From positions 7,314,992 through 7,378,991 of the forward strand of contig JAJEKV010000058.1 of the NCBI GenBank assembly GCA_021234155.1: DNA of 64,000 nt, read 5' to 3'. The notes below the pieces were generated by a model. That model was not told where the DNA came from. It did no database searches and saw only the letters and a list, made by a program, of their open reading frames with translations. This document shows positions 7,779 to 38,885 of this stretch, piece after piece (the first letter of the stretch is position 1; every line of letters starts with the position of its first letter). The position numbers were made by a program, and so were the translations under genes. This stretch comes from Isoetes taiwanensis (taxonomy: Eukaryota; Streptophyta; Lycopodiopsida; Isoetales; Isoetaceae).

Positions 7779-8282
7779 TGTGACGTTCCAGGGAAATATA
7801 CGCCATAAATACGTATATTTCCAGGTCCGTCATTATACAAGTCTATCTTCATAGCCTTGTATACCATAGATTGTGGCACTAGGGGGCATGACTAAGTTAT
7901 TCATATAACTTAGCCAACCTTAGGTTAAGACCATTTTCCACGTGGCCTTAACCTATTGGGCATCTGCCACACGGACTTACCCTATTGGAGCCACGTGGCA
8001 TAACATGTGAACCCTAACCTATAAAGGCCTAAACCCTAACCCTAGGCCTCTTTTCTGGCTCCAGCAGTCTGGGAACCTTATTCGCGCTCGAAACTCCATT
8101 TCGAGAACCGTTTGTTGTGGCATAGCCTAGCACAACAGCCCCCAGAGCGTGAGCGCATCAGCAGGAGTGGGAGCTACCTCGAACACTTCGAATACCATGG
8201 AGACGCCAGGATTGGGAGGGAGTGCTTCTGGAGCAGGTATGTAGAGTAGTGCTCGTGGTAGATCATCTGGAAGTTAGCACTC
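7779..8282 (+). mobile_element. Solo LTR, left part (split by nested chromovirus)
   Basis: Begins TGTGACGTTCC directly after the TCCTA duplication. It continues at 21428 on the far side of the nested element, giving a solo LTR of about 1,616 bp. The first 11 bases differ at one position from the chromovirus LTR start (TGTAACGTTCC on the minus strand), and internal stretches also match, so it belongs to a related family in the opposite orientation. A TATA-like cctataaaggcc lies near 8020. No internal coding region of the outer element remains, as expected from LTR-LTR recombination. Confidence 0.75.
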
Positions 8283-9908
8283 TGTGATGCTCCCCCAATA
8301 TAATATATCGACCCGGCCATATACACGGGGACTTTCCCCCCTTCCCCCGCCCGTGACAATCCATCTTGCCATGGGCAGGGCCCTCCGTCTGACCCGGGCC
8401 ATCTACGTAGAGATGCTCCAGTGAAGGACACGGAGGTGTCATTCGGCCACGCCCCGATGGCGCCCTACGCCGTGGAAGCATGAATACAAGGGTTAGCCCA
8501 CAAAGATAAATCATATATAAATAACCACCACGAAGGGTGGCGATCCATCCAAATACCAACGGCGGAGAATATGCATCTAAACTAGGAAAACACCCCAAAC
8601 CTCGGGTTTTACCCGGCTCGGACTCTAGTGAGGATCGACACGAATTTGGGCCTCAAGAGATCAGCCAGACCGAAGTCTTGGCATGGCGTTATCGGCATAG
8701 AACATCGGCTAGGGTTGTCCCTCCATCCGCCCCTCCACATTGCACACTTTGCGGATGGGTCGATTCACGCTATATGGCGCTATAGCCTTGGGAGAGACGC
8801 AAACTCTAACGAGATATCACCCGTTTGAGTCTACTCCGGGGTTCATGACGCCTGGTCCAATGAGGCGGGTGAGGAAAGCGTCCCCTTCCGGGATCACAAA
8901 GTGGTTCCATGGGTGAGCTAGAGAATACGTGCCGCATCAGCGACCCCCGCATCCGTACCCAACTTAGTCACCCTAATTCTACTCAAAGTGCAAGATGCTC
9001 CATACGGATCACACCTCTACATCCAGGGAGTGTCAGACCCATACCCGGCCCTCTACGTGACCGGCTATCAGGCCTAGCCCACTGTAGGAGTCTCAGGAGC
9101 CTTTTATGTTCGTGCAAGACCCCACCCCCACTTCACCACTGTGTCCTTTATCTGGTGCTAAGCCAGACCATAGCATCTACGACCCGGTGGTCTCTTGTAC
9201 ACAGGCCGCATCTAATGGGGATATTACAGGGCTCTATCTAGGAGCATACTACCATATATGAGCTCAGAGGTCTCTACCCCCCTTTAAACCCCTGTTTTAT
9301 GGAAGCTACCCAAATACTTCATAGATACATCAATCATCCTTAACAAAGTACCATTCATAATTGAATTGTAATCCTACTTACCACAGAAGGGTTAATTCCC
9401 ACAAAGGCAACCAAAGAAAGAGAGTACTACAAAGACTATCTTACAAAACACAAGCTAAACTACTACTAACCCGTGTTTTTTGGAAACCGATTATCGTGAG
9501 GGGCTTCCGTAGTGCCGCAACCGGGGTGGCAAAGGTGTCGACCTAATGATTGTTCGATGATTTGGTGAAGTCGACCTTGAGTTCTTGGGTGCTCAAATTG
9601 CTCCTTGGGCCGGTAGAGTCGATTAAGGTTGATATGGGGGTGGTGATCCACCTAATTGAATCCAATTAGCATTTACCATGCTGGCCAATCGAGTTTGGCC
9701 AGGTGGTGCCTTCTCAAACCATAATTAGCTTAATTATTATTAATTTCCTTAATCATAGGTTATTATCCCTAATGTTTTAATTAACATAGCTAATTAAATC
9801 CCTTTTAGGTCAACCCCCTAGGTTACCATACCACATGGTGGCATATCTATACTGGGTGACGTGTCAATGTATTTATACATGTACCGTATAAATACTTGGA
9901 ACGTTACA
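8283..9908 (-). repeat. Chromovirus 3' LTR
   Basis: 1,626 bp, matching 19814-21422 over its full length. On the element strand it starts TGTAACGTTCC (at 9908) and ends ATCACA (at 8283). Differences from the other LTR concentrate at CGG/CAG-type sites and in one- to three-base indels, heaviest at about 8430-8900 and 9410-9620. The ~330 bp on the 5' side of the LTR (9640-9900) are almost identical between copies. Confidence 0.95.
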
Positions 9909-9921
9909 TTCTCCCCTCCTT
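9909..9921 (-). other. Polypurine tract of the chromovirus
   Basis: On the element strand AAGGAGGGGAGAA abuts the TG of the 3' LTR directly. This is the standard position and composition of the plus-strand primer. Confidence 0.85.
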
Positions 9922-10512: not shown

Positions 10513-11274
10513 CTAAAGGCTACTCTTGGCAATCAAGCTCCCAAGCTTACCGCCGGCTACGGGTTTGATAGCATCGTTGATGGTGTGTCCTTGAGATTCC
10601 CGCATGAAGTCCGGATAATGCTTGTCAAGGTCTATCTTCATCACCCAAGTAGCATCCTCAACTGGTAAGTGCTTCCACTTAACCAAATATTGCAACATTT
10701 GAGTCCTTCTGGTTTGTTTATAAGCTCGATCAAGAAGAGCTTCAGGTACTATTTCCAGCTGCTCCTCTGTCATTTCGAGGAGAGTTGGAATGTCCAAAAC
10801 TTCCTCTGGATCAGGGGTGTGTTGTTTCAGAAGACTCACAAAGACCTTGTGGATCTTCAAGCGGGGCGGCAAATCCAAGCGATATGCCTGCTCTCCAACA
10901 CGCTCAATAATTTTGAACGGTCCAGCCCATCTGGGTGCCAACTTCTTGCAATTGCCAATCTTAAGCTTGGCTTGCTTTACCTTAATTTTAAGCCAAACGG
11001 ATTCACCCACCTGGAAAGCGCGTGGGGTTCTGTGCTTATCGGCTACACTCTTCTGACGACTGCATGCAGCTAATAAGTAGCCACGAACTTCTTCGACCAG
11101 AGCTTGCATCTCCAAGAGGAGTTACTGTGAAACCTCCACTTTAGAAACGGGGTTATGCCATGTGTCTGGAGTAAGACATTGATAACCATAATTTATCATG
11201 AAGGGAGACATTCTGGAAGACTCCTGTTTCATGCTGTTATAGGCGAACTCGACTAGATAAATGTAGTCTGCCCA
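10513..11274 (-). pseudogene. Integrase C-terminus with chromodomain
   Basis: Continues the pol frame past a TAA at 11275-11277; a second in-frame TAA follows near 11125, just before the 200-codon open stretch that ends at 10513. That stretch carries the integrase C-terminal fold (KVKQAKLKIGNCKKLAPRWA, GPFKIIERVGEQAYRLDLP, then IHKVFVSLLKQH). It ends in a chromodomain of about 45 residues with the aromatic/acidic pattern YLVKWKHLPVEDATW followed by DLDKHYPDF. In chromoviruses this domain directs integration to particular chromatin. The two stops should truncate integrase and remove the chromodomain unless read through. Confidence 0.88.
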
Positions 11275-13645
11275 TTATGATTGCTTACTCCATACATAAC
11301 TTCGCAGCATATCCTCTATAATGCGATTGGTACGTTCTGTCTGACCATCTGTTTGAGGATGATAGGCCGTACTAATAGCAAGCTTGGTTTGGATGGTGGC
11401 AAAGAAATCCTTCAAGAATGCACTTACAAATTTGGGATCCCTGTCGGATATAATAACTCGTGGCATTCCGTGCAATCTGAAGATCTCCTTGGCAAATAGC
11501 AGAGCAGTATCAAAGGTTGTATCTGTGGTACGACATGGCAAGAAATGAGCCATTTTTGACAATTTGTCGACCACTACCATTAAGGCATCATATCCACGGA
11601 GAGTTCGTGGAAGGCCCACAATGAAATCCATGGTTATTACTTCCCATTTGGCGTTGGGCACATCCAGGGGTTGCAACTCGCCCGGAATCCTTAACTGCTC
11701 AGCTTTGGTTTGCTGACACACCTGACACTGCTTAATGTACCTGGCAATGTCCTTTTTCATAGAAGGCCAGAAATAGCTGGAGCGAATCTTAAAGTAGGTT
11801 TTCATAAACCTCGCATGTCCAGCTATAGGGCTGTTGTGTGTGTCGTGGAGGATTAGCTTATGCACTCCCGAAGTCTCAGGTACACACAACTTATCCTTGT
11901 GATATAATAAGTTGCCCTCTTTCTTATACGCACGAAAGGCTTCGCGTTCCTTATCGGTGCGAGCTTCCTTAGCCAAACTATCCCAAACATCACGGAACTC
12001 CGGATCCGTGGCCAAGGTCTGCTCTATCTGTTTCCCAAACTCATTGGTGAGTGTAGAAATGGCATTACAATGGGTTCGGGTCACCAAGGGATGGCGTGAC
12101 AATGCATCCGCAACCACATTGTGCTTGCCAGGCTTGTACATAATCTCGAAGTCATACTCCTCCAAGAATTCCATCCATCTCCGCTGACGGAGGTTGAGAT
12201 TCGGCTGGGTGGATAAATAACGGAGACTTTGATGATCCGTGTCCAACTGGAATCTCCTGTCGAGAAGGTAATGTCTCCATATCCACAGGGCTCGGACAAC
12301 GGCTAACAATTCTTGATCATGGGTAGGGTATCGCTGCTCCATCTCGTTCATTTTCTTTGAATCATAGGCAATAACCCTCCCCTCCTGTATTAGGACTCCA
12401 CCGGTGGCAATCTTACTGGCATCCGTTGCCATTAGTTTATCCTTCTCAGGATCAGGCAATGTGAGAACTGGTGCTGACGTTAAGGCATCCTTAAGCTGCT
12501 GGAAACTTTCCTGAACCTCTGCCTTCCAGTGCTCCATCCAATCTTTCACCTTCTCATGCTTTGTAAGGTTTGTAAGAGGTGCTGCAATCTTTGAAAAATC
12601 CTTTACAAATTTCCGATAATATCCTGCTAATCCCAAGAAACTTCGGACCTCGAAAACATTTCCTGGAATAGGCCATTCCCTTACGGCCTCTATCTTTACT
12701 GGATCTGTAGCAATTCCCTCTGCCGAAATGATATGGCCTAAATAATCGACCCTCGGAGTGGCAAACTTGCACTTCGAGAACTTGGCATAGAGCTGATGAC
12801 GCCTTAGCTTTTGTAGGGCCAATCTAAGATGATTCTCATGTTCCTCTAGGGTTTTACTATAGATGAAAATGTCGTCAAAGAAAATAACAACAAAATCATC
12901 CAAGTATTGTCGGAAAACATCATTCATCAATCGCATGAAAGTTGCAGGGGCATTAGTTAATCCAAAAGGCATGACGGTAAACACATAGTGCCCATATCTA
13001 GTGCGAAAAGCAGATTTATGGATATCCTCCTCTTTAATCCTTATCTCATGGTACCCGGAGCGTAGATCAATCATTGAGAAGTATTTGGCCCCTTGCAACT
13101 GGTCCATTAGATCATCCGCTCTAGGCAAGGCATAGCGATTCTTGATGGTATGCTTGTTGAGTTGCCGATAATCAATACACATCCTCAACGAGCCGTCCTT
13201 TTTCTTAACAAAAAGAATAGGAGCGCCAAAAGGCGAAACACTAGGTCGAATAAAACCTAGGTTTAGTAACTCCTGAAGTTGCTTCTTAAGTTCTGCCAAT
13301 TCTGGAGGACTCATACGGTACGGGGCCTTGCTGGTAGGCTTGGTACCTGGATCTAAAGCTATTTCACATTCCACCCCTCTAAAAGGAGGAAGCTTCTGGA
13401 TTTCATCTGGAAAAAGATCACCAAATTCTCGGAGAAGGTGAGCAATCCCCTCTGGCAGGGTATCGACTACTTGCTTCTGTTTACCATCTGACTCAATGGA
13501 GGCAAGCCTAATGACGCAGAGGAGCTTTTCCTTGCGTATAGCTTTATCTAACTGCCGGATGGACATAGACTGCATGATAGGGTTGAATGGTTCACCTTTT
13601 ATAGTCACGCGGGCTCCATTAGCTGCGTTGAAGGTAACTTCCGTT
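11275..13645 (-). CDS. pol: Chromovirus reverse transcriptase, RNase H and integrase core
   Basis: A long uninterrupted frame (about 777 codons, 13608 to 11275) that begins a few codons after the protease, from which it is separated by a one-base deletion near 13645. Reverse transcriptase: [43 protein letters not shown], and the catalytic box as FFDD. RNase [13 protein letters not shown] and the DHQSL region. Integrase: zinc finger H-x-H...CQVCQQTK, then a DDE core visible as [15 protein letters not shown] and [13 protein letters not shown]. The frame is closed by TAA at 11275, apparently from CAA by one transition. Conservation across nearly 2.3 kb implies recent insertion. Confidence 0.93.
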
Positions 13646-14144
13646 TCTCATGATCTATGTTGGCTTTTGCAGATGCCAAGAATTCCATACCAACAATGAG
13701 ATCGTATTTGCCAATGTCCATCAACTCGGCACCCAAAGCAACTGGTGCACCTGGCAACTGCATCTTAAGATTGATGCGGCGGCCATGAGTATGTCTGACC
13801 CTACCACTGGCTAGAGTGACAGGCCTCGGTCGGGACCTTAATGTTTCAAGCTGTAAGACTTGAGCCATTCTAGGAGAAGCAAAATTATGTGTACTTCCCG
13901 TATCCATAAGAATTACAAAAGGCTTACTGTCTACTTGACCTATAGTGGAAATGACAGCAGGCTGACTTTCAGCATTGCCGGTTTCTATAGCTGCAAGGAT
14001 ATGAGACGCACCGTGAATGTACTCGGGAGCCTCCTCCTCGAGAGGTAGAGTCGACTCAAAATCGTCCCAATCGAGGTCGGCCATGGCCAGCTGAGATCTC
14101 TGCGTGACATAAGGACAATTGTGCATAAAGTGCCCGGGCCGCAT
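13605..14144 (-). CDS. Chromovirus zinc knuckle and aspartic protease
   Basis: This 180-codon frame begins inside the gag zinc knuckle ([12 protein letters not shown], the C-x2-C-x4-H-x4-C pattern) and carries an aspartic protease with the catalytic [10 protein letters not shown] and the later GMEFLA flap/helix region. It is then frameshifted: restoring one base near 13645 would make it continuous with the reverse transcriptase frame. Gag-knuckle, protease and RT are thus one polyprotein, as in other chromoviruses. Confidence 0.88.
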
Positions 14145-15284
14145 ACACCTGTAGCATGCCTTATCTCGGCGGAGCTGTTCTCGGACCTCTTTAGGAATAG
14201 ACTGTAAGAGGTTCCGAACTTCCTTACCGACATTGTTACGTTTATCGGCCCGTCTTTGAAAGGTGACTTTCTTTTTCTGGCGGCCATAAGAGTGCTTCTT
14301 GAGAGGGCCCGGACTTGGCGGCCGGGGTTTGTAAGGTGTGGGCCCGTGGCTGCAGTAAGGAGGCGGGGCCTTGGATCTTGGTTCTTTGGTATGTCCTCCT
14401 CGAGGCTCAATGCTTTAGCCTCAGCCTTCTCAACTGATTTCGGGTCTATGGCCTTAACCATCCGTTTGATTGATGGGGCCAACCCTTCAATATAACCCTC
14501 CACTGCTCTCTTTTCATTCATACCTAGTACATATAGCCTCAGGCGCATAAATTCATCAGTGTAGGCCTGAACTGACATACCCTTCTGCTCTAACCTATAG
14601 AAGGTCTGAATTTGTTGGCATTTGTGCGCACGAGGCACATAATGCGACTTAAAAGCTTTTGCAAACTTTTTAAACTTGCACCTGCTTCTGTCCAGATGCT
14701 TGGCTCTTGCATAGCCCTCCACCAAATATGGGCAGCTTCTGTAAGATTGGTGGTGGCAACCTTTCCTGTATCCTTTTCTGTCATGCCATAGGATTTCCCA
14801 AACTCCTTCATTTCGTCCAACCAGGACTCTGCATTCAAACCGCCTCTAGACTTCCTATCAAACTAGGCCAGTTTCCTATTTTTCCATATACTAGTTATGG
14901 CTGTATCAACCGTCTTGCGGTACTCCTTATCCCACAAGCCCCATGGTCACGGTGATCACAGGCGACTCAGGGGACACGGAAGTGGCTGATTGTGATGAGG
15001 TGGTACTTGTCCTAGAGGAACTCGGCGGCGTTTAGAATGAGGTCCCTCGTGCGAGTACGAGGGTGGTTTGGTGGAAATGGCTGCTGTGTAGGTGGACTTG
15101 GCGGTGGCGGAGGTAACTCCGGTCCGTCTTCTTGTATATGCTGGGGTGGATTGGCATGCAACACATACGCTTGCAACTCGCCTAATTGCCTCTTCATTAG
15201 CATAAGTTCCTGTTCAGGTGTTAGTCTACTGGCATTTGAGGGCGTCTGCCAAGCGGCGTTGCGGGCACCGTCTATATCCAGCAT
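14100..15284 (-). pseudogene. gag: Chromovirus gag (frameshifted)
   Basis: Starts at an ATG at 15284 (MLDIDGARN...). A Gln/Pro-rich N-terminal region follows (residues about 45-75, polyproline), then the retrotransposon gag capsid core (WLDEMKEFGKSYGM, AAHIWWRAM, then FKSHYVPRAHKCQQIQTFY, RLEQKGMSVQAYTDEFMRLR) and the zinc knuckle at 14140-14105. At least three small frame changes break it (near 15010, 14720 and 14330). The capsid residues themselves are well kept, so the lesions are young or are sequence errors. Confidence 0.85.
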
Positions 15285-15545
15285 ACAAAAGGTGTAAGCC
15301 GACTTATGGTGACATAAGGTCTCACAACAATGCTATTTTGGATCAGTTAGAGAAAGAATACAAGAAAAAGTACAATGGCAAAAATCCTTATTACAGGTGG
15401 AAACAGTCATTCTATTATAGTTCAGTACATTGATAGTAACACAAGTTGATACAAAGATTAAGTACAAGGACAAACATTATACATTGGAGATTTAAAGTTC
15501 AACTCACCTATAACCTCATAAAATACAAAACAAAAGAGACTGAGC

Positions 15546-16226: not shown

Positions 16227-17627
16227 TTAAGAGCTAGGTCCTCCCTCTTCATTTGTAGACCGAGGAGGTGGTGGCGGCGGTCGGTGTCGTAGCAAAGTCA
16301 CCCCTGGGTCTACTGTGGCAGCCGCAATGGAAACAACCTCTGGCGGATAGGCAACAACCAATGGGGCTGCCGTAAGGAGCTTCATGCTCATCCAGGGTGC
16401 AATATCTTGCCCCAAGGCTGTCAGGGCAAGATCCCGTCGTACGAGTACGTAGGTGAACGTACGATAGGGAAGCTTTTTGTGCCCGGCCAATGTGGAGAGG
16501 GCACGGAGGGTCCACCATGATGCTTCAGCCTCCAGCCCTAAATCTCGGGCTATAAAAAGAACTTGCCCCTGTCGAAAAGCTGAAAGGAAGAAACGAGTAA
16601 GGTGGTTTCCCAATACTTTCCCTTGCGGGGTCTCTGACGTGGCCACCTCCTTATCTAAGTCCATAGGGACTTCTTCCTCCTTAAGTTCCTGCTGCTCTTC
16701 CTTCAAATGAGCAGGATTATGGTATAGATCCTCTCCCTCCTCATCCGAGTCGGAGGGAACCTCGACCATATTAATGTTGGGAACATGAGGTCCCATAGTT
16801 GTAAAGGCATCCGGTGAGGGTTGAGAGGCCGGTTCCTGCATCACCAGTTCCCGTAGCCGTAGCAAAGTCTCAGCCGGCTCTATGGTCTCCTGGCGGAACT
16901 GGAGTAGCTGCTACACCTCCGGGGGAAGCTCAATGGGAGCGAAGTCGATGAAATCATCCATGCAATACTCCGCTAACTCATAAAGCACATGGTCCTTACG
17001 CCGGCGCTTAAATCCGGCCACCATGTGATAAGTCCAGATGATATCATCCAAGAGAAGATATTCTTGCCCTTAGTGATAAATAACTGGAAGGGCATCTAGC
17101 CCTGACAAGCGTGCAGCTTGTTCCCGGCGTGGTGGCATCTCCTCTGCTAATTGCTTCCAACGGGCGAAGTCGCCCATGCCTATATGCTCATCATCTCCCT
17201 CCTCAGGAGATTCACGGAGTTTGCCTTTCTCTACAGGCAAAGTTTCATCCTCAACGTATTGATCCATGAGGATGGCTAGGGCGAAGGCAACCTCAAGATA
17301 TTGTCGCCCCTGATGCTGCACAACAGGCAGGTGTTTGCCCCATCTGAGCTTTCCTTTAAGCACATTATACGCATGGGTATCACCCCCTAACATATCCCGG
17401 GCTACCTCCCGCTCTAAATACAATTGGGGAGGATCCCCAAGGGTGACACACAAAGGAAGCATCTCCTCCATGTAGAAGTCTAAGAACCCAGCATAATCTG
17501 GGTGCCGCTGCATATTAGTGATGAGGTCTAGGCGCTGGCATAGCAAGGGCCGCAACAGATCAAAGGGCACTTGCGGATCCCAATGCTCTCCATCTTGATA
17601 CCATGCGAGAAGGTCGGTGGCTGCCAT
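16227..17627 (-). pseudogene. Element ORF2, about 466 codons with two in-frame stops
   Basis: Not recognised. A single reading frame runs from the ATG at 17627 to a stop at 16227, interrupted only by TAA at about 17070 and TAG at about 16914. The 50 codons between the two stops and both flanks keep the same frame and composition. The predicted product is acidic, with an Asp/Glu-rich low-complexity middle (SDSDEEGED) and a proline-rich C terminus. A polypyrimidine tract with TTCTAG lies directly upstream, so the mRNA start is probably a splice acceptor at 17632-17633, four bases before the ATG. The position between PBS and gag, with sense orientation, fits an accessory ORF of the retrotransposon. 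It may be a capsid-like or captured host protein; I cannot tell. Confidence 0.55.
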
Positions 17628-17633
17628 GGCGCT

Positions 17634-17828
17634 AGAAGGGAGGAGGAAGCAAGAAAAACAGATAAAACATTTGAAATGAACTTTGGAAATCCTTTTTAAC
17701 CCCTTTTTATTATGCTGATGTCAGCAATTTCGTATTTATCACAAAATAAAAGGTTCTTAATACAAAACAAAAAGTTTTTATTAAATCTCAGAAAAATATA
17801 TTTACAATACGGAAACTCAGCAGAATAT
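17634..17828 (-). other. AT-rich non-coding spacer ending in a splice acceptor
   Basis: Strongly AT-rich compared with the GC-rich ORFs on both sides. On the element strand it has AATAAA-type hexamers (about 17775 and 17705) and ends in a 20-base pyrimidine tract plus TTCTAG immediately before ORF2. It may be 3' untranslated sequence taken along with the histone message, an intron of the element, or both. Confidence 0.45.
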
Positions 17829-18233
17829 GCTAAGGACGCTCCTCAATGAATCCTGCGGGCGAGGGCTAAATCCTTAGGCATGATAGTGACCCTCTTTGCG
17901 TGGATCGCGCAAAGATTTGTGTCACCAAAAAGTGCCACTAAATAAGCCTCATGACCTCTTGGAGTGCCAAAATGGCAAAAGTGCAGGCGGAGATCGGTCT
18001 TGAACTCACGGGCAATCTCGGGACCAACCTCTGGAAGGGGGGAGCTTAGTATCGGAAGTTGGGTTGACTTACGAAACTTACGGATCTCCGTAAGGCAATG
18101 ATGATGTGTCGGTACGGTGGGGCTTCCCTGTGGAAGGCGGGGTTTGGAGGCGGCCCCCTTGATCGAGACCTGATCTTGGCCCCAACAGCTGGTGGGGCGC
18201 ATCCACCCAATCACGCCTCGGTGGGGCTCGCAT
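17829..18233 (-). pseudogene. Histone H3-derived sequence captured by the chromovirus
   Basis: An open frame (18214 to 17843) ends with an unmistakable histone H3 C terminus: [34 protein letters not shown]. Upstream in the same frame are [10 protein letters not shown] and [11 protein letters not shown], the H3 alpha-N and alpha-1 regions. Loop 1/alpha-2 (ALQE) is in a neighbouring frame for about 12 codons, restored by a compensating indel. DNA similarity continues 5' through a KPHR-like and a KAARKSAP-like tail in shifted frames to an ATG at 18233, and 3' past a premature TGA to the ancestral C terminus at 17829. Total length is about 405 nt, against 411 for a 136-residue H3. No intron is present, consistent with capture from mRNA. 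It looks like canonical H3 rather than CENH3. Sense orientation, between ORF1 and ORF2. Confidence 0.85.
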
Positions 18234-18339
18234 TCTTGCCAAAAGCGCCGGCGGTCTTTAGTTTTTCCTTGTATTATTTGCGGATTTACGGGCCCGCGGC
18301 CTTCCTCGGTGCTTAGCGGTCGTGTGCTTTCGGTGGGGA

Positions 18340-19080
18340 TTAGGCCCTTCCCACTCCCGTGCCCCTTCCCTTGCGGGCTCGGCGGAATCTGCAGAGCCTT
18401 CTCCTCCTTCTCCGTTCGATCCTCTCACGCTCTTCCGGAACTCCGGGCTCTCCTAAGATCTTCTTCAACTTTGGCGAAATGTTGTCTTTGCGCTTCTGGC
18501 CGAAGAAGTTGACATAATGCCGTCCGGGTCTACGGGCCATGTCAATGCGGATTGTTATTAAATAATCAATGCTGATATCAGGGATCTGCCCCCATATGAA
18601 GCTGCGGGAGTCTTCATCCCATCGGTATGGGGGAATCTCAATCGCCCTACCATCTATGACGGCGACTCCATCCCCGAGGTACCGGTACTCCCTGCCCCGA
18701 GCCGCCATATCGGCTCGTTCTATTTCTTGGCGGTCATCCTCTCTGGCCAAGTTTCGGATGCGATCGGCCTCCCCTCTTATGTCCTCCTCCTCTGTATGTC
18801 CTTCACATTCGGGAGGGTAGAACTTAATCAGCATCATGACCAAGTCAGGTTGCTCGGCCATGGTGTAAGGGAGCTGACGGAGGTTCAGCCGGATCAAGAA
18901 TGGCTCCGAGAAGTGGTAGATGGGATAGGGGATCCTATCATTGTTCTCAAACCTGTTTACTAGCTCGTCTAGAAGTATGTCAATCAAAGCAGGGTCGGTA
19001 GCCATATTCCGAGCGATCAAAGCATAGATCTGGGCGATAGTAAGGTTAGTGGGGTCCGGAGCACTCTTGGTGTTGGCCAT
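18340..19080 (-). CDS. Element ORF1, 246 aa, unknown
   Basis: Not recognised. It starts at an ATG in good context (complement GCCATGGCC, 19080) about 720 bp after the PBS, so it is the first ORF of the element RNA. The N-terminal half is helical ([20 protein letters not shown]) and the middle is strongly charged (Glu/Arg-rich, residues about 95-130). A short aromatic-containing region follows ([17 protein letters not shown]). The C terminus is extremely basic ([18 protein letters not shown]), typical of nucleic-acid binding. It ends about 105 bp before the histone-like ATG. Since small indels are common here, ORF1 and the histone part could once have been one fusion protein; that is speculation. 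Confidence 0.55.
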
Positions 19081-19799
19081 GGCTTATGGCACTAAGGTCT
19101 GGAAGAACAGGCAATGGGGCGCTTGTAGCTAGGGAAGCGGGAGTGAAGGCGCTAGGGTTAGCGAGGAACAAGGGCGAAAAAACAGAGTCAGATCTGGCGG
19201 CGATGGCGGGCGTCGGTTCCGGCGGGCGAAGGCGCTTGAAGGCAAGGCGGAATAAAAAAAACTTCAACGGCCAGTTAACATAAAATAATTATACGGCAGA
19301 AATACACGGAAACATACGGTCGGGCGCCGACGGCATTATACGCGCTCCCACCGCGACTGGGGGTCGACTAAAAGCAAGCGGCGCCCGGGTTGACTTTCGG
19401 GCCCGCATTGACCAGCGGCCTGAAAGGTCGGTCGGTAAATTTGCATTTACGGGTCTCCCACCTCAAAGGCGACAAAAATCAAGCGGCGCCCGAGTTGACT
19501 TTCGGGCCTTCCCTTGACCATTTTTCCGCCAGCGACGACCGTCCTAGGGTATTTGGGGTACGCCCGATCCAATGGAACCACTTCTTCCTTCATTTAAACT
19601 ACCTACAAAAATTTATAATTCTTCCAAACCTGGGCCTCCAGTCACCCTAACTTCTTTAAACCTACAATTTCTTACTTTAACCTAACACAAAACCAAACAT
19701 CAAAGAGGACTAACAACACACTAACTTGGCCTCTTCCTAACTACCGAACTAACGAGTTAGTATTTGGTCAGTGCTATGATTTCGAGCAACCGAAATCAC
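19081..19799 (-). other. Chromovirus 5' leader
   Basis: About 720 bp between PBS and the ORF1 start. It contains two similar phrases (about 19376-19405 and 19478-19510, both reading caagcggcgcccg-gttgactttcgggcc), an internal direct repeat in the GC-rich leader that could be an RNA structural or packaging element. No conserved coding frame seen. Confidence 0.45.
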
Positions 19800-19812
19800 G
19801 GCTCTGATACCA
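19800..19812 (-). other. Primer binding site, initiator tRNA-Met type
   Basis: On the element strand TGGTATCAGAGCC lies one base after the CA end of the 5' LTR. It is the classical complement of the 3' end of plant initiator tRNA-Met and fixes the element orientation. Confidence 0.93.
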
Positions 19813-19813
19813 C

Positions 19814-21422
19814 TGTGACGCTCCTTATATATATACGACCCCCGGCCGTATACATACGGGGACTTTCCCCCCCGTGACAATCCATATTGCCATGGGCAGG
19901 GCCCTCCGTCTGACCCGGGCCATCTACGTAGAGATGCTCGAGTGAAGGACACGGAGGTGTCATTCGGCCCACGCCTTCGATGGGCGCCTACGTTGCAGAA
20001 GCATGAATACAAGGGTTAGCCCACAGCATAAATCATATATAAATAACCACCACGAAGGGTGGCGCATCCATCCAAATACCAACGGCAGAGAATATGCATC
20101 TAAACTAGGAAAACACCCCAAACCTCAGGTTTTACCCCGGCTCAGACTCTAGTGAGGATCGATTGACGGCTGGGCCTCAAGAGATCAGCAGACCGAGTCT
20201 TGGCATGGCGTTGGCTGGCATAGAACATTGGCTAGGGTTGTCCACTCCATCCGCCCCTCCTGTGCACACTTTGCAGATGGGTCGATTCACGCTATGGCTT
20301 CGCTATAGCCTTCCGGAGACGCAAACTCTAACAGATATCACCCGTTTGAGTCTACTCCAGGGTTCATGACGCCCCGGTCCGATGAGGCAGGTCAGGGAAG
20401 CGTCCCCTTCCAGGATCACAGTGGTTCCATGGGTGAGCTAGAGAATACGTGCGCATCGCTGACCCCGCATCCGTACCCAACTTACTCACCCTAATTCTAC
20501 TCAAAGTGCAAGATGCTCCATACGGATCACACCTCTACACCCAGGGAGTGTCGGACCCATACCCGCCCTCACGTGACCCGGCCATCAGGCCTAGCCCTTT
20601 GTAGGGAGTCTCGGGGAGCCTTTTATGTTCGTGCAAGACCCCACCCCCACTTCACCACTGTGTCCTTTATCTGGTGCTAAGCCAGACCATAGCATCTACG
20701 ACCCGGTGGTCTCTTGTACACAGGCCGCATCTAATGGGGATATTACAGGGCTCTATCTAGGAGCATACTACCATATATGAGCTCAGAGGTCTCTACCCCC
20801 CTTAAACCCCCTGTTTTATGGAAGCTACCCAAATACTTCATAGATACATCAATCATCCTTAACAAAGTGCCATTCATAATTGAATTGTAATCCTACTTAC
20901 CACAGAAGGGTTAATTCCCACAAAGGCAACCAGCAAAGAGAGTACTACAGTACTATCTTACAAAACACAAGCTAAACTACTACTAACCCGTGTTTCGGCT
21001 GGAACCGTTATCGTGAGGGGCTTCCATAGTGCTGCAACTGGGGTGGCAGCGTCAGCTAATGATTGTTCAGTGATTTGGTGAAGTCAGCAACAGTTCTTGG
21101 GCGCTCAACTGCTCCTTGGGCGCTCAGCCGTGCCGATTAAGGTTGATATGGGGGTGGTGATCCACCTAATTGGATCCAATTAGCATTTACCATGCTGGCC
21201 AATCGAGTTTGGCCAGGTGGTGCCTTCTCAAACCATAATTAGCTTAATTATTATTAATTTCCTTAATCATAGGTTATTATCCCTAATGTTTTAATTAACA
21301 TAGCTAATTAAATCCCTTTTAGGTCAACCCCCTAGGTTACCATACCCCATGGTGGCGTATCTATACTGGGTGACGCGTCAATGTATTTATACATGTACCG
21401 TATAAATACTTGGAACGTTACA
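19814..21422 (-). repeat. Chromovirus 5' LTR
   Basis: 1,609 bp. On the element strand it starts TGTAACGTTCC at 21422 and ends CGTCACA at 19814. It contains the element promoter, but I could not assign a TATA box with confidence; a tataaata string near 21400 lies too close to the LTR start to be convincing. Confidence 0.95.
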
Positions 21423-21427
21423 CACTC

Positions 21428-23149: not shown

Positions 23150-26100
23150 TGGGCAATAGTGTATGTTTAGCACGACAAGGTGCCAAAACATGGACAAGTT
23201 TATGTTCCATGTGTTCATGCTCCTAGGTAGGTTATATAATTTAGAACGAACAAATAAGGCATTATAATATTAGCTCGTCAACATATGTTAGCTGAAATCG
23301 TTCTAGGAGACGATAAGAAAATACAAAAGCCAATGAATGTTGTGGTACATAAAGAACCATAATGTGGAAAGGAAAAAAATTGGAACAACAAGAAGGCACA
23401 CCAGAAGACTTTGGCAAGCTCTTGTTTGTTTAGAGTCAAGATTTGCTAGAAAAAGTTAAAGAGATGCTAATATGGTCATTGTTGTCTTCAAATTAAATGA
23501 TTGAGGAGCTGATAAGAGTATGGATCAAGTACTAGTTGAGAAACACATAAATTATTAAAGAGGTCACGGCTCACCACACACTTCACTAAGATGAACATTT
23601 CCTATGGTGATCTATACTTGTTGCATCTTATAAAAATGTGCAAATGTGCCTTGTAAGTTAATTTTTAGCTTGTAATATGCCATCATGTGTTGTCGCTTTG
23701 GTCTATGAATATATAAAGAAAATGATTATTCACATTGAACATTATTGTTCTTGTTGTCACAAAAAGTTTTATAGTATATTGCATTTGCATATCATGGCAC
23801 ATCTCTTTATTCTAATAATAAAACCACAATTTTGTTTATTAAGAAGATTCTATACTATAACAAACAACCATACATGACCGACAAAGTTCAATATCATAGA
23901 TCTTTGAAATAGATCCAAGAACCAAAGCAAAATTGGAAATTTCCACACCTCTAAAGCAACCTGAAATATAGATGATTACTAAGGGTCCAATTTTAATAAA
24001 AGAGTTTGTATCAATGTTATATGCTGTCAAGAGTCAAAGTTTTATCACCTTCATTAAAATCCCACCTTTTTGAGTTTTTGAGGAAAATCATTGAAATAAA
24101 AAATTGAATAGTGAAGAAACATATACGTCAGTAATTAATCATCCAAAGCATTATGAGTGCACGAGAAAAGCGAATAGCAAAAGCTTCAAAGCTCCAATGT
24201 TAATAGCTTCAATGCTCCGAAAAATGACACGATAGGGTAGACCTTCACCCGGAACCAATCTAAGTTCACATTAAAATAGCAGCTTCAAAGCAGCAATATT
24301 AATAGATCCAAACTGCTAGAAAATAACACGATGTGATAAAACTTGAGCACACGACAAAGAGAAAATAGAAAACCCAATTAGAGTCATTGGACTTTCGACC
24401 ATCATCGGTAAAGATAATGAATACGTTAGAAGTCCAAAAAGTATTGCAAAATAAGGCATCTACCTAGCCCGAAAGCACATCGGCACATTAGAGGGGGAAA
24501 AGAAAAAATCACCAATCATCCGTGACCAAGCATTGCAGGGAGGAACATCCGTCTAGCCAGGAAAGATGTAGCTTATAACCTAGCTTTCACCTCCATTTTA
24601 ACTCTACCACTATAGCTTTTAACTTTAACTTTGGCAAGCTTAGTCGTTTAAATCTGCTTCCTCCATCTAAGACCATTGACAAGTGCATGTCTAACCTTCC
24701 ATTTGGATGGCACTTAAGACCATTGCCAAGTGCATGTCTAACCCTCCATTTGGATGGCACATCACTAGGGAAATTGTCATAAAATGACCTAAAAACTATT
24801 AGTTGCATTGAACCAAATACACATATTTCCCATGCACTCGAGATGAATATACACAACAATAAAACTTTAATGTAGCGTTTACTCGGTGATAGATTCATCA
24901 CAAATCTAAGCACTCTGCTTGAACACTATGTGGTACCATTTGAATTTTAAGGAGGCAACTTATTTATAACCATACATCCTTCTACTAGAACAACACTTTG
25001 ATGTATCAACATCTTGTTTCTTTGGGGAAAGGGGAAAAATAGTCTGGCTATTATTAGAAGAAAGTGGCATCCTTATAGTTATGTTTGGCAATTTATTTCA
25101 TGTTGTTAAGAAATCCCTCTTGATAAAGTTAGCCACAAATTTTTCCTACACCCCTAACCATTTGGCTAGCAAATAATTTTTTCCATGCATCCGAATTGAA
25201 TCATAGCTGCTTCAATAATTGTTTCATTATTACTAAACGGTTATTATTCTTCGTGGAAATTGCTCCAAGAAACTAGGATCATTATTGTAAAACAAATTAA
25301 ATAAAATGAAGGGAACCCAGGCCCTACGACCACCAAAGATTTACACAATTCTATAAGGTAGGCGGGTGAGATCCAAGAAACTAGGAGCATCATTATTAGA
25401 ATTAAACAATGAGTGGTACCCAAACAATGGGATTACCAAGATTTGGTGTCAAATCTACAGAAACAAAGCAGATTATAGGAGCCTATTAGGAAATCGTTGG
25501 CGTTAATTTCTATAGCAAATAGAAGGTTTAGCGTTTGACTACAAAAAATTTGGCTAGCGCCATAGAATCGACTATCAGTATCAACAAATTCTGTTAGCGC
25601 CATAAAATCGGCTGACAGTATCGGCGCCCACCAGTTGTCAATGTCAATTACAATGGTCACGTCCATTACTTGTGTCAACTGCTATCAGTTGTCAATATCA
25701 TAAATAATAACTAATTATTTCAATTGGGATTACAAGATTTGGTCAAAGCCCGCAACGAAATTTGGTCAAAATCCACAACCAAATCCAATGGACCAAACTC
25801 TACAGTGGTAGTTGGCACCAAGATAATATTTTTACGTCATGCACTAATTAAGGTGGAGTTGATTGATTAATTAAGGTGGAAAGTACAGGACGTGGTAAAC
25901 TAGGTATGAGCACAAATTCAAACCATTTATCAAAATATCTTCAATTAAAAGCTTGTAAGTTCACATACACATGAATAAACTTGCTGTTAGATGGAAATGA
26001 ACTTCAATTTGAAAGATATATACAAAAGGTGAAGCCTATGTTACAACCATTACAGTATCGTGTTAGCCAACGATGGTAATATGATTGATTATGAAGTAAA

Positions 26101-26184: not shown

Positions 26185-27788
26185 CTAATCCTGAACTGGA
26201 ACAGCTGCATCTGCTCCTTCAGCAACATCTGGGATGATGCGAGGCGGAAGTGAAAGAGCACCATATGTAGAACTGCCTTTAGACAAGTCTTGAATGGTAC
26301 GAAGTGCTGCAAGAATACTTCTGTGGATGCTATCTAAATTCTCCTTGGGGTCATCTTCAGCAACCGCTATCTCGCTATTTCCAGATGTAGATGGAAATAT
26401 GCTCCTGAGATTCTGTTCACATTCTCGGACAAGTTTAGATAGAAGCTCTGTGGTGAAAAACGGTTGATGGAGAACACTCTCTATAAAATTCAAACGCAAT
26501 GACGATCCCATGCGTTTATCATGCTTCTTCAATATCTTGACCAAACCTGTAAAGGATGGGAGAGTTATGAAAAATCTGGACTAATATGCATAGGTAACTG
26601 TTCGGTTATTACCAGTATAATTCAAGGAGCTATAGTTTTCCAACAAAACCATTTCCCCGTATAAAGTGACAACTGCCTTCCATATATTTATCAACTCCTG
26701 ACCACTGTTCTCATCATTAGCATTCCGCCGCTCTTTTATCTTCTCTGTTCTATCCTTCAGCTCCTGCAAATAATACCAAGAACTATTACATAAACGACTT
26801 AGCGGAAACTTTCACAACAATATAATGCATGTAAAGCATCTGTGCCAAATATGCTACAGACAATAGTAACATGAAGTGCTGTGCTGCAGTTGTTCTTTCA
26901 TCATGTAAATGCCAAACATTGCATGTGAAACATCAACTTGCTGATCATTTTGTTGAGAAGACAATCTAAATTGATCAGATCAAGAATGTCCTGATTTAAC
27001 AAAAGTAAACACAACATTGTTCAATATGAGTACCACCAATGAGCATGTATTTGAAACTGTTATAGCCAAATAAAATCCGTGAAAATAAGACGGACATATC
27101 AGCGCCGTCTCATATTAGGATGAAGAAAATAGAGTACATCCAAGCATATGCATCCAAACATAAGAGTGAGGATTGTTACCTGTAGTCTAATCACATACTC
27201 CTCTTCTTTTTCCATGAAGAAATCATTGAACTTCTCGAGCTCCACATCTAACAGCTGAGTAAACTCAAACTCTCCTACTTTTCCTTCTATGTCCACATAT
27301 ATTCTTCTTCGTGGCAGATCACCATCCTCTGCTATGCTTTCAGAACTCCTGCATGTTGTTTTGTTCTCAGCATTTTCTACCTTGCTTTCTGTAACCTTGC
27401 ATGTTGTTTCCTGATCCCTTGTTTCTAACTCTTCCTTATGAAGTACCTGGTCTTTAAAAACACCCTCTAATAACTCCTCATCTCCAGCAAATTTTTCCCA
27501 CAAGCCTTGCAAATCTCCAGCCACTTTTGGTTTTGCATCTTCTGTGATGGCTTCTGGTTTGCCACTTTTCTTCCTAAGTTCTTCAACTGCCACATCCACA
27601 GCAGAGGAGACTTCTTCTTCAGAGCTTGCCCTGGAGGGACTGGTGCCTCCAAAAGCTGCTGCTACAAAACAGTCTGGTGCAGAAATGAGTTTCAACCTCT
27701 TCTTCAGACGCTTATAACTCAAAAACTTATCTTTCCAATCCGGCATCATCTCATCAATTTGACTTTGCAAGCGCTTTCCAAATTTCAT
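26185..27788 (-). CDS. SPX domain protein, SPX4-like (three exons)
   Basis: SPX domains bind inositol pyrophosphates and report phosphate status. Stand-alone plant SPX proteins hold back PHR transcription factors when phosphate is ample. Exons: 27788-27180, 26763-26613 and 26546-26185, with GT-AG introns in phase, giving about 373 aa. The start at 27788 gives the canonical MKFGKRL. SPX parts: residues 1-35 (DWKDKFLSYKRLKKRLK), the second helix pair (LEKFNDFFMEKEEEYVIRLQ, about 184-203) and the C-terminal part (NYSSLNYTGLVKILKKHDKR, then HQPFFTTELLSKLVRECE). The lysine-rich ligand motif KILKKHDKR is intact. The tail (SIHRSILAALRTIQDLSKGS) matches the SPX4 type. Unusual is a linker of about 140 acidic/polar residues (about 36-178) between the first two SPX helical parts. 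No membrane segments follow, so it is not PHO1 or SPX-MFS. Confidence 0.93.
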
Positions 27789-30540
27789 CTTGCTCAAGAT
27801 TCAATCTTCAAGAGCAAAAAACAAACCAATCCACAAGCAAAAGAAAACACCCTCTTTAAAGATCCAAAAGCAAACAAAAGGAATAATTCCAGATTCCCAC
27901 AAAGCCGCTAACAAAGCCGAAACAAAAGCTCAACAATTACCCGAATCACCAAAGGGACAATTTCGCAGGGCATGTACAAGTGCGCAAGGCAATGCAGGCA
28001 AGATTCCAAGAAGCAAGGGCCATAGCCGACTTTTGGGTCCAAAGCAAAAACATACAACGGAAATAATACAGAGACCAGGAAAGGCGAGAAGCATCAGGAA
28101 ATACCTCTAAAGCATATCCTTGAAGTGGGGACAGACAGAGCATATACTGCCGGATCTGGGTTACAAAAAATATGGATATGCTCTTTTCGGATATACCCAT
28201 CTTCATCAAATTCAAAGCCCGCTACAATAGATCGGTTCTTCCGGCTTATACGTGTTCGTCCTAATCTCAGTGGCCAGGATGCATTTTAATGCCTCTGGCC
28301 CATCGTATTCGCAAAAGTCTTTTGTTGTTTATTTCCAGGTTCTTGGAGTATTCCAAGCATATTCTTAATTCTGATGGTATTTGAATTTGTAAAATTCTCT
28401 TATCGGATATCCCTCTGTCTCTCTGCCTGAGCCATTATAATATTTGTATTTATTATTATTCTGTAGTTCCACATCATGTTTAGGGTTTGTATTGGATTAG
28501 GTAAGCAACTGGAAGAAACCAGAGATACATGGGCAATCCCTAGTGCTTTGCACCTTGTCTTTTGTGTTTCCTTAACGGGACCATGTTGAACTTATGTTGG
28601 CAACTTGGCAACAACTTACCATTTCCCCTAGTGCTACTCTCCGTATTGCTAAAACAATACACTTATAGAGGGTGGCCATAAACTGCACACTTAAGGAAAC
28701 AGAGGCTCTCAATTTTTGTTACAGCTATCAAAATGGCAGAAAGTTAGCATCATTTGGCGGCTTGTGTTCTAAGCTATACCTTGATTTTGAAGAAATCCAA
28801 CTTGTGTACAAGTTTATGGATGCTCAAAATAGGGCAGGTTGTTTGTCCAAAGACAACGCATCCATTGCGCTTCCTTCGTACACCTTGTGCTCATAGTTCA
28901 AATTGTACCATGTAAGGAATAGGGATAGGCGACAGAAGAATAGGGATGGGCGAACGGGGCTAAAAAAGTAGACGGTAGAAGGAATTTGAATGGGTTGAAG
29001 AAGGATTTTTGGGTGTAGGAAGGGCACCCTTCCCTAATATGCATCAATACTTAATCATGAGACATGCCATTATACGCAATGAATGTTACAGAAGCTCAAT
29101 GCCCCTCTGCTCAGACCATTGCACATGCTAAAAAAGAACTTGGCAATCACTTATTAAGGCCAGAAAAAGACGTGCTCTTACTTTAATTCCTCACTAGCCC
29201 TTCCTATTTTGGACACTTAAAAGGAAAGCAAAGTAGACCACATATATATTCAAAAGTAAAAGCAAGTCAATCAATTATAAAAAATGTTGAGGAGTGAGTA
29301 ATAAAGGTCAGGTAGGGACCTTGCCCTTTATATATGCTCTTGGAATGTTCTACATGCCAATGATAAGGGATTTGTTTATCATTTATTGAGTTCGTGTCTA
29401 ATAATAATCTTAGTGTCGGTTATTATCCACTAGTTTTGCAAACTCGAATCGTATGTTATGATGAGGTTGTGAAAAAGATGTCCAAACTAACATTCGGCCT
29501 ATCCATGAAACTTAAAATTCAAGTTTAGTCTTTCTTTGCAATCAACGTAAGAAAATAATACGTCTCATCTACACAAAAAGGAGTGGACCATGTAAGTTAA
29601 TACTACTTAATAGTATTTAAATATCTATAAACCAATTGCTCTTAGAGCTATATTCCTCAAAATATTAGTACTTGGACATATAAATATTAGATGTATATAA
29701 AAAGGACAAGCACTTATTTAGCCGAAGATTATTTTGTACTATCTTGGATGGCAAGGCCCTGTTAATGAAGCTGCAATTGGACCTACGTTCTGCTTTGTGC
29801 TAAATTTACAGCCGGCATTGATTTCATTGTTATTACCCCATGATCTACATGGTTTATGGGACCCTATAAGAAAATGGAGGGACGCCATTACAAGGGCCCT
29901 TCGTGAAAACTAAAAGTCACTTAATGTTAATCATATTCATGAGATAGGTTGCAATCACTAAGTAACGCGTTGCTTTGCATGTATGTTCATGCACCACTAC
30001 TAATATGATGCAATAGAACAAGACAATGGTAACTATCTCTACATGCCTTGCCCAAATATCAAGCATTTTCTAATATGATATGCACATCCTCCAAAGTGCA
30101 TAGTCGATCATGATGTGCATACTCAACTATCATGGGACTCCCATATCCCATCATTGAGATGCTCATGAACATATGTTGACACTTCCCAACTACATCTAGG
30201 AAGAAAGAGAGATTTCCAAGGTAATGGCATCCCAAAGTTTTTGTCTTGAAGCAAGATTTACATCTGGGCATAGGCATGCTTGGATGTATGGCATAATTTG
30301 ATGACACCTATAAGACCAACCCATCGAGACCTAAGACAGTGATAGAGGAGCTCACACAATCATAATATTCGCACATAATACATATAATAAATGCGCATCA
30401 ATACTTGGACATCAGAATGTGCAAAACCATGTATATCCGCTAGAAAAATTATAAATAGCATTAAGAAACATCTAAACCAACCTACGTCAATCAGTTAATC
30501 CAAAGGTATTTAAATCTTGAGTTTACAAATGAGATGTGCT
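27789..30540. other. SPX 5' flank and intergenic DNA
   Basis: The first few hundred bases (A- and CA-rich on the plus strand, T/GT-rich on the gene strand) probably hold the SPX 5' untranslated region and promoter. No P1BS (GNATATNC) site was established by systematic search. Beyond about 28.3 kb I see no gene, only AT-rich spacer. Confidence 0.4.
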
Positions 30541-34429: not shown

Positions 34430-34690
34430 AATATGCCACCTAGGCTCCAACAAGCCACCCTGGCTCAAACATGCCATGTAGGCTCCAACATGCCACCTAG
34501 GCTCAAACATGCCACCCAAGGTGGCTCAAACATGCCATATGGGCTCTAACATGCCACATGGGCTCCAACATGCCAAGGTGGCTCAAACATGCCAAGGTGG
34601 CTCAAATATGACACGTGGGCTCCAATATGCCAAGATGGCTTAAACACGCCACCTAGGCTCCAACATGCCAAGGTGGCTCCAACATTTCAA
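34430..34690. repeat. Minisatellite with gctccaacatgcca/ggctcaaacatgcca units
   Basis: About eight to ten imperfect units of 17-36 bp alternate between ggctccaacatgcca and ggctcaaacatgcca. A diverged copy of the array and of its left flank occurs at 38728-38885. Confidence 0.8.
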
Positions 34691-37329: not shown

Positions 37330-38727
37330 TAAAAATGCCATTTCTAATGAAATATTTATTAATGGTCTTCTGTGAAAGGACAGGGTTGACAGTAAACCTT
37401 ACAAAAACCAAAATAGTCATCTTCGGTTACAGGAACAGACACAGACCTTTCAGGTATATGGGGACAGAACTAGAGGAATCAACAGAGTACAGGTACCTGG
37501 GGTATGACTGACGCACATAGCACAGGGAAGTGGGCAAAAGGCGCAGATGCGAGATTTCAATCATCCATTGGGAGTTATTTCAATATGAAAAACTTCTGCA
37601 ATAAAAGCAGAATAATCGACTGGGAGATCAAGTGTTACTTGTTCAGTGCAGTGGTCGCGACAACGCAATTATATGGGGCTGAAGCTTGGGGATCGGGCTT
37701 AACAGACAAGAAGTGGGAAAAACAGGAAGGGATCCTCAGACAGTGGCATAAACAGGAATTTAAGGTGCGAACAAACACACCACTAACAGCCATGATATAC
37801 GAGACAGGGCAAAAACCAATGGAGGTGAGAGCTTACTATCAGATACCTAATGAAGGACAATACAGGAGGGAACTCAGGGAAACTGTCAAGCATCGTAATC
37901 AGCGAGTCAGCAAAGTCACACATACTTACAGGCAGTGGATGGTTTAAGGATGTGGCGATGTGGACCAGAGAAATGGGAATGAATCTGAGTGATCTGGTAA
38001 ATGAGGGGAAATGGAATGAGGACTGGGCAGACAAGGCAACACGATCATGGCTGCAAAAGCACACAGGACCCAAGACACTCTGGCTTATGACAGTCTTCAA
38101 TCCAGAACAGCAGATAGGACAACATATGTACCGAGACAACCTGCTAGGAAAGGCCAGAAGGGACACTCTGGCGAGATTTAGGATGGGGAGTCACGATCTA
38201 AGAATTGAAAAGGACAGATGGCAGAAAATAGAAGATGACCGGATATGTAGAATCTGTGACACTGGGAAAGTGGAGGATGAGAACCACCTGCTCAATGAAT
38301 GTCCAGTATACGGAGACATCAGAAACAAATACAGAAACATAAGGTGGGGACAGCCAATGCACACCCTGATGACAAGGGTAGAAACAATGAGAGATTTGGC
38401 AGATGAAATCCAGGAGATGATGACCAAACATCGGGAAATACACAAAGAAAAAGGGATTTTAATTTGAACTGCCCAAGAGGCGGGTCATAAACGCCCACAA
38501 AATGCTCAGCTAAAAGCTGATTGATAACGACACACCACTGCACGGCCATGAAGCCGATTCAAAGCGGGGTGCCGGTACTAATAGAAACCAAGTAAGCCTT
38601 CAGAAAAGGCTACAATAAACCAGCGTGATGTGCTACTAGCGCCTGTTAGGGAGCTTGCCCATGCTACACAAGTCCAGGGGCCTTAGGGCACAAGGGACAA
38701 TAATTTCTATTCTATTCTATTCTATAT
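37330..38727 (+). mobile_element. 5'-truncated LINE with (TTCTA)n tail
   Basis: Three overlapping frames (37239-37511, 37504-37947, 37850-38467) join into the C-terminal part of a LINE reverse transcriptase ORF: GLTVNLTKTKIVIFG and YRYLGYD (RT palm end/thumb, about 37380-37510), LYGAEAW (about 37665), and a C-terminal zinc finger CRICDTGKVEDENHLLNECP (38249-38305, C-x2-C...H-x4-C). Small frameshifts lie near 37510 and 37900. A ~230-bp 3' untranslated region ends in (TTCTA)n at about 38705-38727. The microsatellite tail instead of poly(A), and the residues, show it is a different LINE lineage from the poly(A) family at 6183-7340. Confidence 0.75.
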
Positions 38728-38885
38728 ATTATTGTTTTATGGTTCAAATGTTGTGCCCTTAGAATTGACCATGCCACCTAGTTGGTTCCAACATGTCAAG
38801 ATGGCTCAAACATGCCATGTGGGCTCCAACATGCCAAGATGGCTCAAACACGCCATCTAGGCTCCAACATGCCAAGGCGACTCCA
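38728..38885. repeat. Second minisatellite copy
   Basis: A diverged copy of 34385-34690, including the flank (atattattgttttatggttcaaatgttg) and a few gctccaacatgcca units. Confidence 0.7.

Follow-up and report, generated by a model that had tools for sequence, protein, structure and literature searches.

The closest described precedent for the locus reported here is a hAT DNA transposon of the fungal wheat pathogen Pyrenophora tritici-repentis that contains an H3-like (H3L) ORF, for which the accessible part of the report gives 26 near-identical, recently expanded copies, possibly drifted according to its authors (PMC3538342). Histones are also encoded by viruses: in the excerpts available, bracovirus H4 is incorporated into nucleosomes of the host and exerts its effect through its N-terminal tail (PMC9145170, PMC5423620). 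The text of the viral-histone review (PMC9145170), as far as accessible, mentions neither retrotransposons nor retroelements nor retroviruses, and that of a paper on extra ORFs of LTR elements (PMC7264820) does not mention histones. Likewise, the available parts of two papers on plant chromoviruses describe no histone gene and give no known partners for group II chromodomains (PMC6317226, PMC3350952). More generally, our search of the open-access literature found no retroelement-encoded histone.

The window (the whole 64,000-nt stretch of Isoetes taiwanensis DNA that was analysed) contains on its minus strand a Ty3/gypsy chromovirus, complete in outline, that encloses an H3-derived stretch. 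Its layout is 5' LTR - PBS - ORF1::H3 - ORF2 - ORF3 - gag-pol with chromodomain - 3' LTR (Table 1). The LTRs end in TG...CA and are flanked by a short TSD; the order gag, PR, RT, RNase H, integrase is that of chromoviruses, with gag broken in the window and intact in copy L014 (Ty3_capsid and Retrotrans_gag in Pfam); and the chromodomain that terminates the integrase passes the Pfam cut-off. The pol region of the window copy extends past its main frame into broken frames. With LTRs and an RT in place of TIRs and a hAT transposase, the element does not belong with the hAT transposons. Since the H3 stretch and the element both lie on the minus strand, the H3 is in sense with its carrier. The original prediction of a sense H3 inside a TSD-bounded chromovirus is thus borne out by the LTRs, the 5-bp TSD, the PBS-like motif, the pol domains and the chromodomain.

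Table 1. Features of the chromovirus and, in the last five rows, side observations elsewhere in the window
Feature	Position	Strand	Basis or remark
TSD CACTC, left	8278–8282	.	5-bp duplication
3' LTR	8283–9908	-	direct repeat and boundaries; K2P 0.041 vs 5' LTR
PPT-like purine-rich tract adjoining the 3' LTR	9909–9921	-	by sequence
Chromodomain, integrase C-terminus	10603–10749	-	Pfam Chromo E 1.9e-8; position derived from the reading frame
pol: reverse transcriptase, RNase H, integrase	11275–13647	-	790-aa stop-to-stop frame; Pfam RVT_1 3.7e-37, RT_RNaseH, Integrase_H2C2
gag and protease	13605–15332	-	frame broken in the window copy; zf-CCHC, RVP_2 (Pfam)
ORF3, 165 aa	15546–16043	-	nothing in Pfam at threshold
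ORF2	16227–17720	-	split in the window copy; nothing in Pfam above cut-off
C-terminal domain of ORF1: H3 core plus some of the tail	17831–18233	-	frame broken in the window copy
N-terminal domain of ORF1 with the long helix (frame of 247 aa)	18340–19083	-	orphan domain; runs on into H3 in other copies
PBS-like TGGTATCAGAGC	19801–19812	-	next after the 5' LTR; presumably a match to Met tRNA
5' LTR	19814–21422	-	direct repeat and boundaries
TSD CACTC, right	21423–21427	.	5-bp duplication
47-bp tandem duplication	24668–24760		95% match
SPX-domain gene exon	27099–27800	-	Pfam SPX E 9.9e-16
Two tandem arrays with a common 19-nt unit	34433–34685, 38783–38876		38-nt and 57-nt higher periods; about 4 kb apart
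ORFs whose end resembles the zinc-binding terminus of LINE reverse transcriptases	37474–38467	+	by eye
Two ORFs similar close to their starts, possibly a single mobile gene present twice	42152–42613, 50583–51836	opposite strands	by eye

The H3 sequence, originally regarded as a unit of 405 nt, is actually the end of a fusion gene, ORF1::H3, that spans about 17831–19080 in the window and whose product in other copies, of about 420 aa or more, comprises an orphan N-terminal domain (N-domain), a long helix, a basic tail and an H3 core. The minus-strand ORF 17843–18424 matches the Pfam Histone family (E 2.3e-14) and solved H3 chains (best E 7.8e-24), and the histone-fold core is recognised by Pfam Histone in copies L014 (E 6.9e-41) and L042 (E 4.4e-42). 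In the four copies compared, the core is 84–87% identical to host canonical H3. The near-canonical part is this core only, from about residue 37: the H3 N-terminal tail with its K4, K9 and K27 contexts is not recovered in the alignment, where a basic tail of 65 residues, hardly similar to H3, takes the place of the canonical residues 1–36. A good part of the copies retain an ARKS-like motif similar to the surroundings of H3K9, and the tail of L042 starts with RRTKRTPNKSG, which by eye is like H3 RTKQTARKSTGG. Thus, the description of a nearly full-length H3 with near-perfect C-terminal helices holds for the core and fails for the tail, which is not H3's own.

The long variable basic tail could point to a captured CENH3 that targets the element to centromeres, since centromeric chromoviruses exist and the changes T107A and Y54F occur in some plant CENH3s. 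A host CENH3 did not turn up among the 150 H3 matches listed, which are mostly taken up by element copies. Yet the same four cores are only 55–68% identical to two CENH3 sequences used for comparison, loop 1 has the canonical H3 length and not the longer loop that accompanies the diverged core of CENH3, and the listed copies are spread along whole contigs; we therefore hold this reading to be very unlikely.

In the window, as in many other copies, the frame is broken. Compared to L014, the window ORF1 shows 25 length differences of 1–2 bases, none of them in the first half of the gene; compared to four copies, it has 9–11 indels per 250 bp at 18000–18500 and mostly 0–1 in neighbouring coding bins. 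The cluster of 1–2-nt indels spans 17750–18500, with smaller peaks elsewhere, e.g. 14250–14500. It looks like unpolished long-read (nanopore) sequence and may be an assembly error, true decay of the window copy being the less likely reading. Unpolished sequence around the H3 stretch would also suit a chimeric assembly join, a reading to which we give next to no weight: the H3 stretch recurs at 39 other places in the genome, and the fetched copies, truncated ones aside, are colinear with ORF1, ORF2, ORF3 and gag. With dozens of independent loci carrying the H3, an artefactual join is excluded, even if the window's own frame breaks may still stem from the assembly.

All 40 scored places found with the H3 DNA query match, namely the window itself and 39 others at 81–86% identity, out of 1230 first-look candidates (such first-look counts being loose), and these matches are far beyond chance. 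With canonical H3 protein as the query, the best 150 of 9031 first-look candidates consist of 15 host genes (97–99%) and 135 others (72–87%). A control with H4 gave 69 first-look candidates, 43 matches and 16 full-length genes; because these numbers are small compared to those for H3, the expansion is particular to H3 as against H4. The N-domain is found at a minimum of about 295 loci. A query with the RT retrieved 149 places, all at least 91% identical to the window RT, at least 54 of which have an ORF1 or H3 match 3.5–9.5 kb upstream; no sister family devoid of the H3 cassette was identified among them, the RT-chosen places being linked only to the ORF1 and H3 matches listed.

Many copies share the fusion. 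An ATG-started frame runs from the N-domain to the end of H3 without a stop in 8 of 20 ten-kb copies picked by DNA similarity (401–443 aa stop to stop), and the same uninterrupted frame is present in 16 of 17 copies taken from the H3 matches mainly because of their long frames (431–451 aa). Among the 135 non-host H3 matches listed, 46 belong to frames of 400 aa or longer, and 127 are devoid of stops in the matched part. When copies were chosen by their N-domain instead (9 from the list of family A and 11 from that of family B, the two families compared below), 18 of 20 contained H3 within the 1.5 kb fetched, and in 11 an open frame covered the pattern of the H3 core; copies lacking H3, which would have spoken against a maintained gene, were limited to L050 and L052, in which no H3 was found within the stretch fetched. 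Elsewhere in the genome the order is likewise ORF1::H3, ORF2, ORF3, then gag-pol, and the 19 other ten-kb copies are colinear with L014 from the leader to gag, save the truncated or interrupted L010, L013 and L023. ORF2 is a single 466-aa frame from its ATG in L009 and L025, and ORF3 has 165–166 aa in most copies.

Histone is the sole Pfam domain of ORF1, and neither ORF2 nor ORF3 has one above the cut-off. In the protein database, the best 120 of 5316 matches to the fusion are all histones by name and Pfam, cover 22–63% of the query and in many cases look like multi-H3 gene models; region 1–300 of the fusion has no homologue at E <= 1e-3 among 4178 candidates; and the best 120 of 7992 matches to the tail plus H3, at most 84% identical, are histone gene models among which we recognised no element-like relative. 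Note that ORF2 of L025 (3003–4400, minus strand) displays by eye a repeated strand-turn-strand-helix pattern, its structure model being of very low confidence.

To assess selection, we used the 27 open copies among 57 element copies fetched, the others having broken or short frames: 8 of L009–L028, 16 of L032–L048 and 3 of L049–L068 (L001 is the window, and L002–L008 are the same places as L009–L015). Within family A (253 pairs), H3 has a median dN/dS of 0.029, compared to 0.10 in the N-domain and 0.22 in the tail. In the 92 pairs that join an A copy to a B copy, H3 is 86% identical and the N-domain 32%, with the H3 synonymous sites saturated in all 92 pairs. Variable H3 sites number 18, 14 and 77 at the three codon positions (100 codons). 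Because most of the 27 copies had been picked for open frames, the H3 analysis was repeated on N-domain-chosen copies, giving a dN/dS of 0.027 in family A (5 copies, 10 pairs, range 0.011–0.193), 0.031 in family B (5 copies, 10 pairs, range 0.023–0.407) and 0.042 between A and B, where 2 of 25 pairs were unsaturated. The N-domain, the tail and ORF2 have diverged while H3 was kept.

These results agree with the original prediction of a maintained cassette, with many copies, H3 at the same position, one frame shared with the upstream domain and a dN/dS near 0.03. The check proposed for it, a genome-wide search for copies sharing the H3 position with a dN/dS below 1, found them among the N-domain-chosen copies (18 of 20, dN/dS 0.027–0.031). 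By contrast, a chance transduction that left a functionless passenger, also entertained at the outset, would be in keeping with the broken window copy and with the transduction of genes by LTR retrotransposons, as reported in the accessible part of PMC7264820, but it is refuted as the main explanation, and made extremely improbable in any form, by a position and frame common to the families, the dN/dS of about 0.03 and the saturated synonymous sites.

All 27 copies, whichever their family, depart from host H3 at residues 105 (26 G, 1 D), 107 (A) and 124 (L), and nearly all copies, again in both families, do so at residues 86, 89 and 102; every one of the 27 has L at residue 90, while at residue 87 family A has F and family B has H, the latter being the state of the host H3.3-like gene L029. 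Since the two families share differences from host H3, one capture before the A/B split is the simplest reading. In the tree, the element H3 copies stand apart from host H3 and CENH3 with an ultrafast bootstrap of only 87 (family A versus the rest 93, family B 96). The low dN/dS, together with 86% identity despite saturated synonymous sites, points to a probable single and ancient capture of the H3 and to strong selection on it since. To judge by these sequence comparisons, it is almost certain that an H3.3-like canonical H3 was captured behind the orphan N-domain and then came under strong purifying selection.

Family B, read through in one element alone (L042 with L069), has its parts in the same order as family A. 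The B and A proteins share 49% identity in ORF2 (pS 0.83), 83% in ORF3, 78–93% across the gag pieces, 90% in RT-RNase H and 96% in integrase; dS is 0.50–0.75 for gag and pol, while the synonymous sites of ORF1 and ORF2 have reached saturation (L042 and L069 versus L014, L025 and the window). Of the 149 RT-chosen places, at least 30 have the A N-domain and at least 9 the B N-domain 5–8 kb upstream; the RTs of 9 B-linked places are 92–93% identical to the window RT. The divergence of ORF1 and ORF2 far exceeds that of gag-pol, so there appear to be two anciently separate 5' cassettes in front of nearly the same gag-pol. This suggests that the 5' cassette is older than its gag-pol backbone, recombination (module exchange) being the simplest reading.

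What might such a protein do? Among the residues invariant in all 27 copies are R49, R63, K64, R69, R83, C110, H113, R116, T118 and D123, which we take to be nucleosome DNA-contact and H3–H3' positions and which therefore fit a protein still pairing with H4. AlphaFold models the H3 part with low confidence (pLDDT about 40), so the argument for H4 pairing is one from sequence; we nevertheless find it rather probable that the H3 domain pairs with H4 or enters chromatin. The N-domain is predicted to have a mixed alpha/beta fold, after which comes a long helix (residues 185–231). Comparison of its predicted structure gave no clear fold match and, no homologue having been found either, it would be a tether without a known partner.

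We propose that ORF1::H3 serves the element as an H3 variant of its own: the histone fold would pair with host H4, probably via host chaperones, and the protein would be built into nucleosomes or H3–H4 complexes, with the N-domain and the helix pointing outward and holding the capsid or the integration complex on chromatin or, alternatively, altering the chromatin of new copies. The invariant residues and the predicted N-domain and helix lead us to favour this chromatin-tethering H3 variant, with interference with silencing as its main rival. Taken as a whole, the captured H3 acting as a variant that serves as a chromatin tether has about an even chance of being right; that tethering is the purpose of ORF1::H3 is a more tentative proposition. 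It is quite improbable, though conceivable, that ORF1::H3 and host H4 form an element-made variant nucleosome whose N-domain or tail is recognised by the element's own integration complex, perhaps by the integrase chromodomain. If this chromatin-address reading were true, the fast-diverging ORF1–ORF2 cassette would be an exchangeable specificity module, recombined between near-identical gag-pol backbones.

The main rival holds that an H3 domain devoid of the normal tail competes for H4 and H3 chaperones or replaces H3 on element DNA, thereby blocking repressive tail marks. It would explain why the core is kept while tail residues 1–36 are swapped for another basic tail, and thousands of first-look candidates confront the host; however, it presumes a putative targeting to element DNA, and a pure loss of the tail would not need the ARKS-like motif to persist. 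On balance, we consider it unlikely, though a serious contender. The conservation of the presumed DNA-contact residues could also be accounted for if the ORF1 protein and host H4, in a nucleocapsid-like manner, compacted the cDNA or RNA of the element, either in its particle or in the pre-integration complex. Giant-virus histones do form nucleosome-like particles, according to the available part of PMC9145170, but gag already has a zinc knuckle and packaging would not require a protein to retain 86% identity with H3 at the H3–H3' interface, which leaves packaging rather improbable.

Histones are among the host's most constrained proteins and are the substrate of transposon silencing, and here a selfish element appears to make its own chromosome-packaging piece. 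A retroelement with a long-kept H3 offers a test, repeated by nature, of which H3 regions are important once the tail is replaced, and the element gives a direct route to asking how a transposon engages chromatin. On the practical side, H3 gene counts in such genomes could be inflated. The Isoetes taiwanensis repeat library was, according to the accessible part of its description, purged of repeats with BLASTx matches to plant proteins (PMC8566536), a step that could have dropped the H3 element from the library.

Compared to known systems, the element belongs to the same class as the plant chromoviruses, i.e. Ty3/gypsy with an integrase chromodomain, and the first aromatic cage position seems by eye to be absent from the window chromodomain, as in the group II chromodomains described in the available parts of PMC6317226 and PMC3350952. 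The LTR elements covered by the accessible text of PMC7264820 also carry extra conserved sense ORFs besides gag-pol, some of them upstream of gag; those ORFs are mostly env-like or of unknown origin, whereas the source gene is known in the Isoetes element. Viral histones, such as bracovirus H4 and the giant-virus doublets and fusions, are likewise parasite-encoded and in some cases fused to unknown sequence (excerpts of PMC9145170 and PMC5423620), but they belong to DNA viruses, while here an LTR retroelement carries H3 alone. The likeness is closest with the hAT H3L, as presented in the accessible part of PMC3538342: in both cases a transposable element amplifies an H3-like gene that has a non-canonical tail and is neither fully H3 nor CenH3. 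There, however, the carrier is a DNA transposon and H3L a separate ORF for which deep selection has not been shown, whereas in Isoetes the H3 of an LTR element is fused to an orphan domain and kept, with a dN/dS of about 0.03, in two deeply diverged families.
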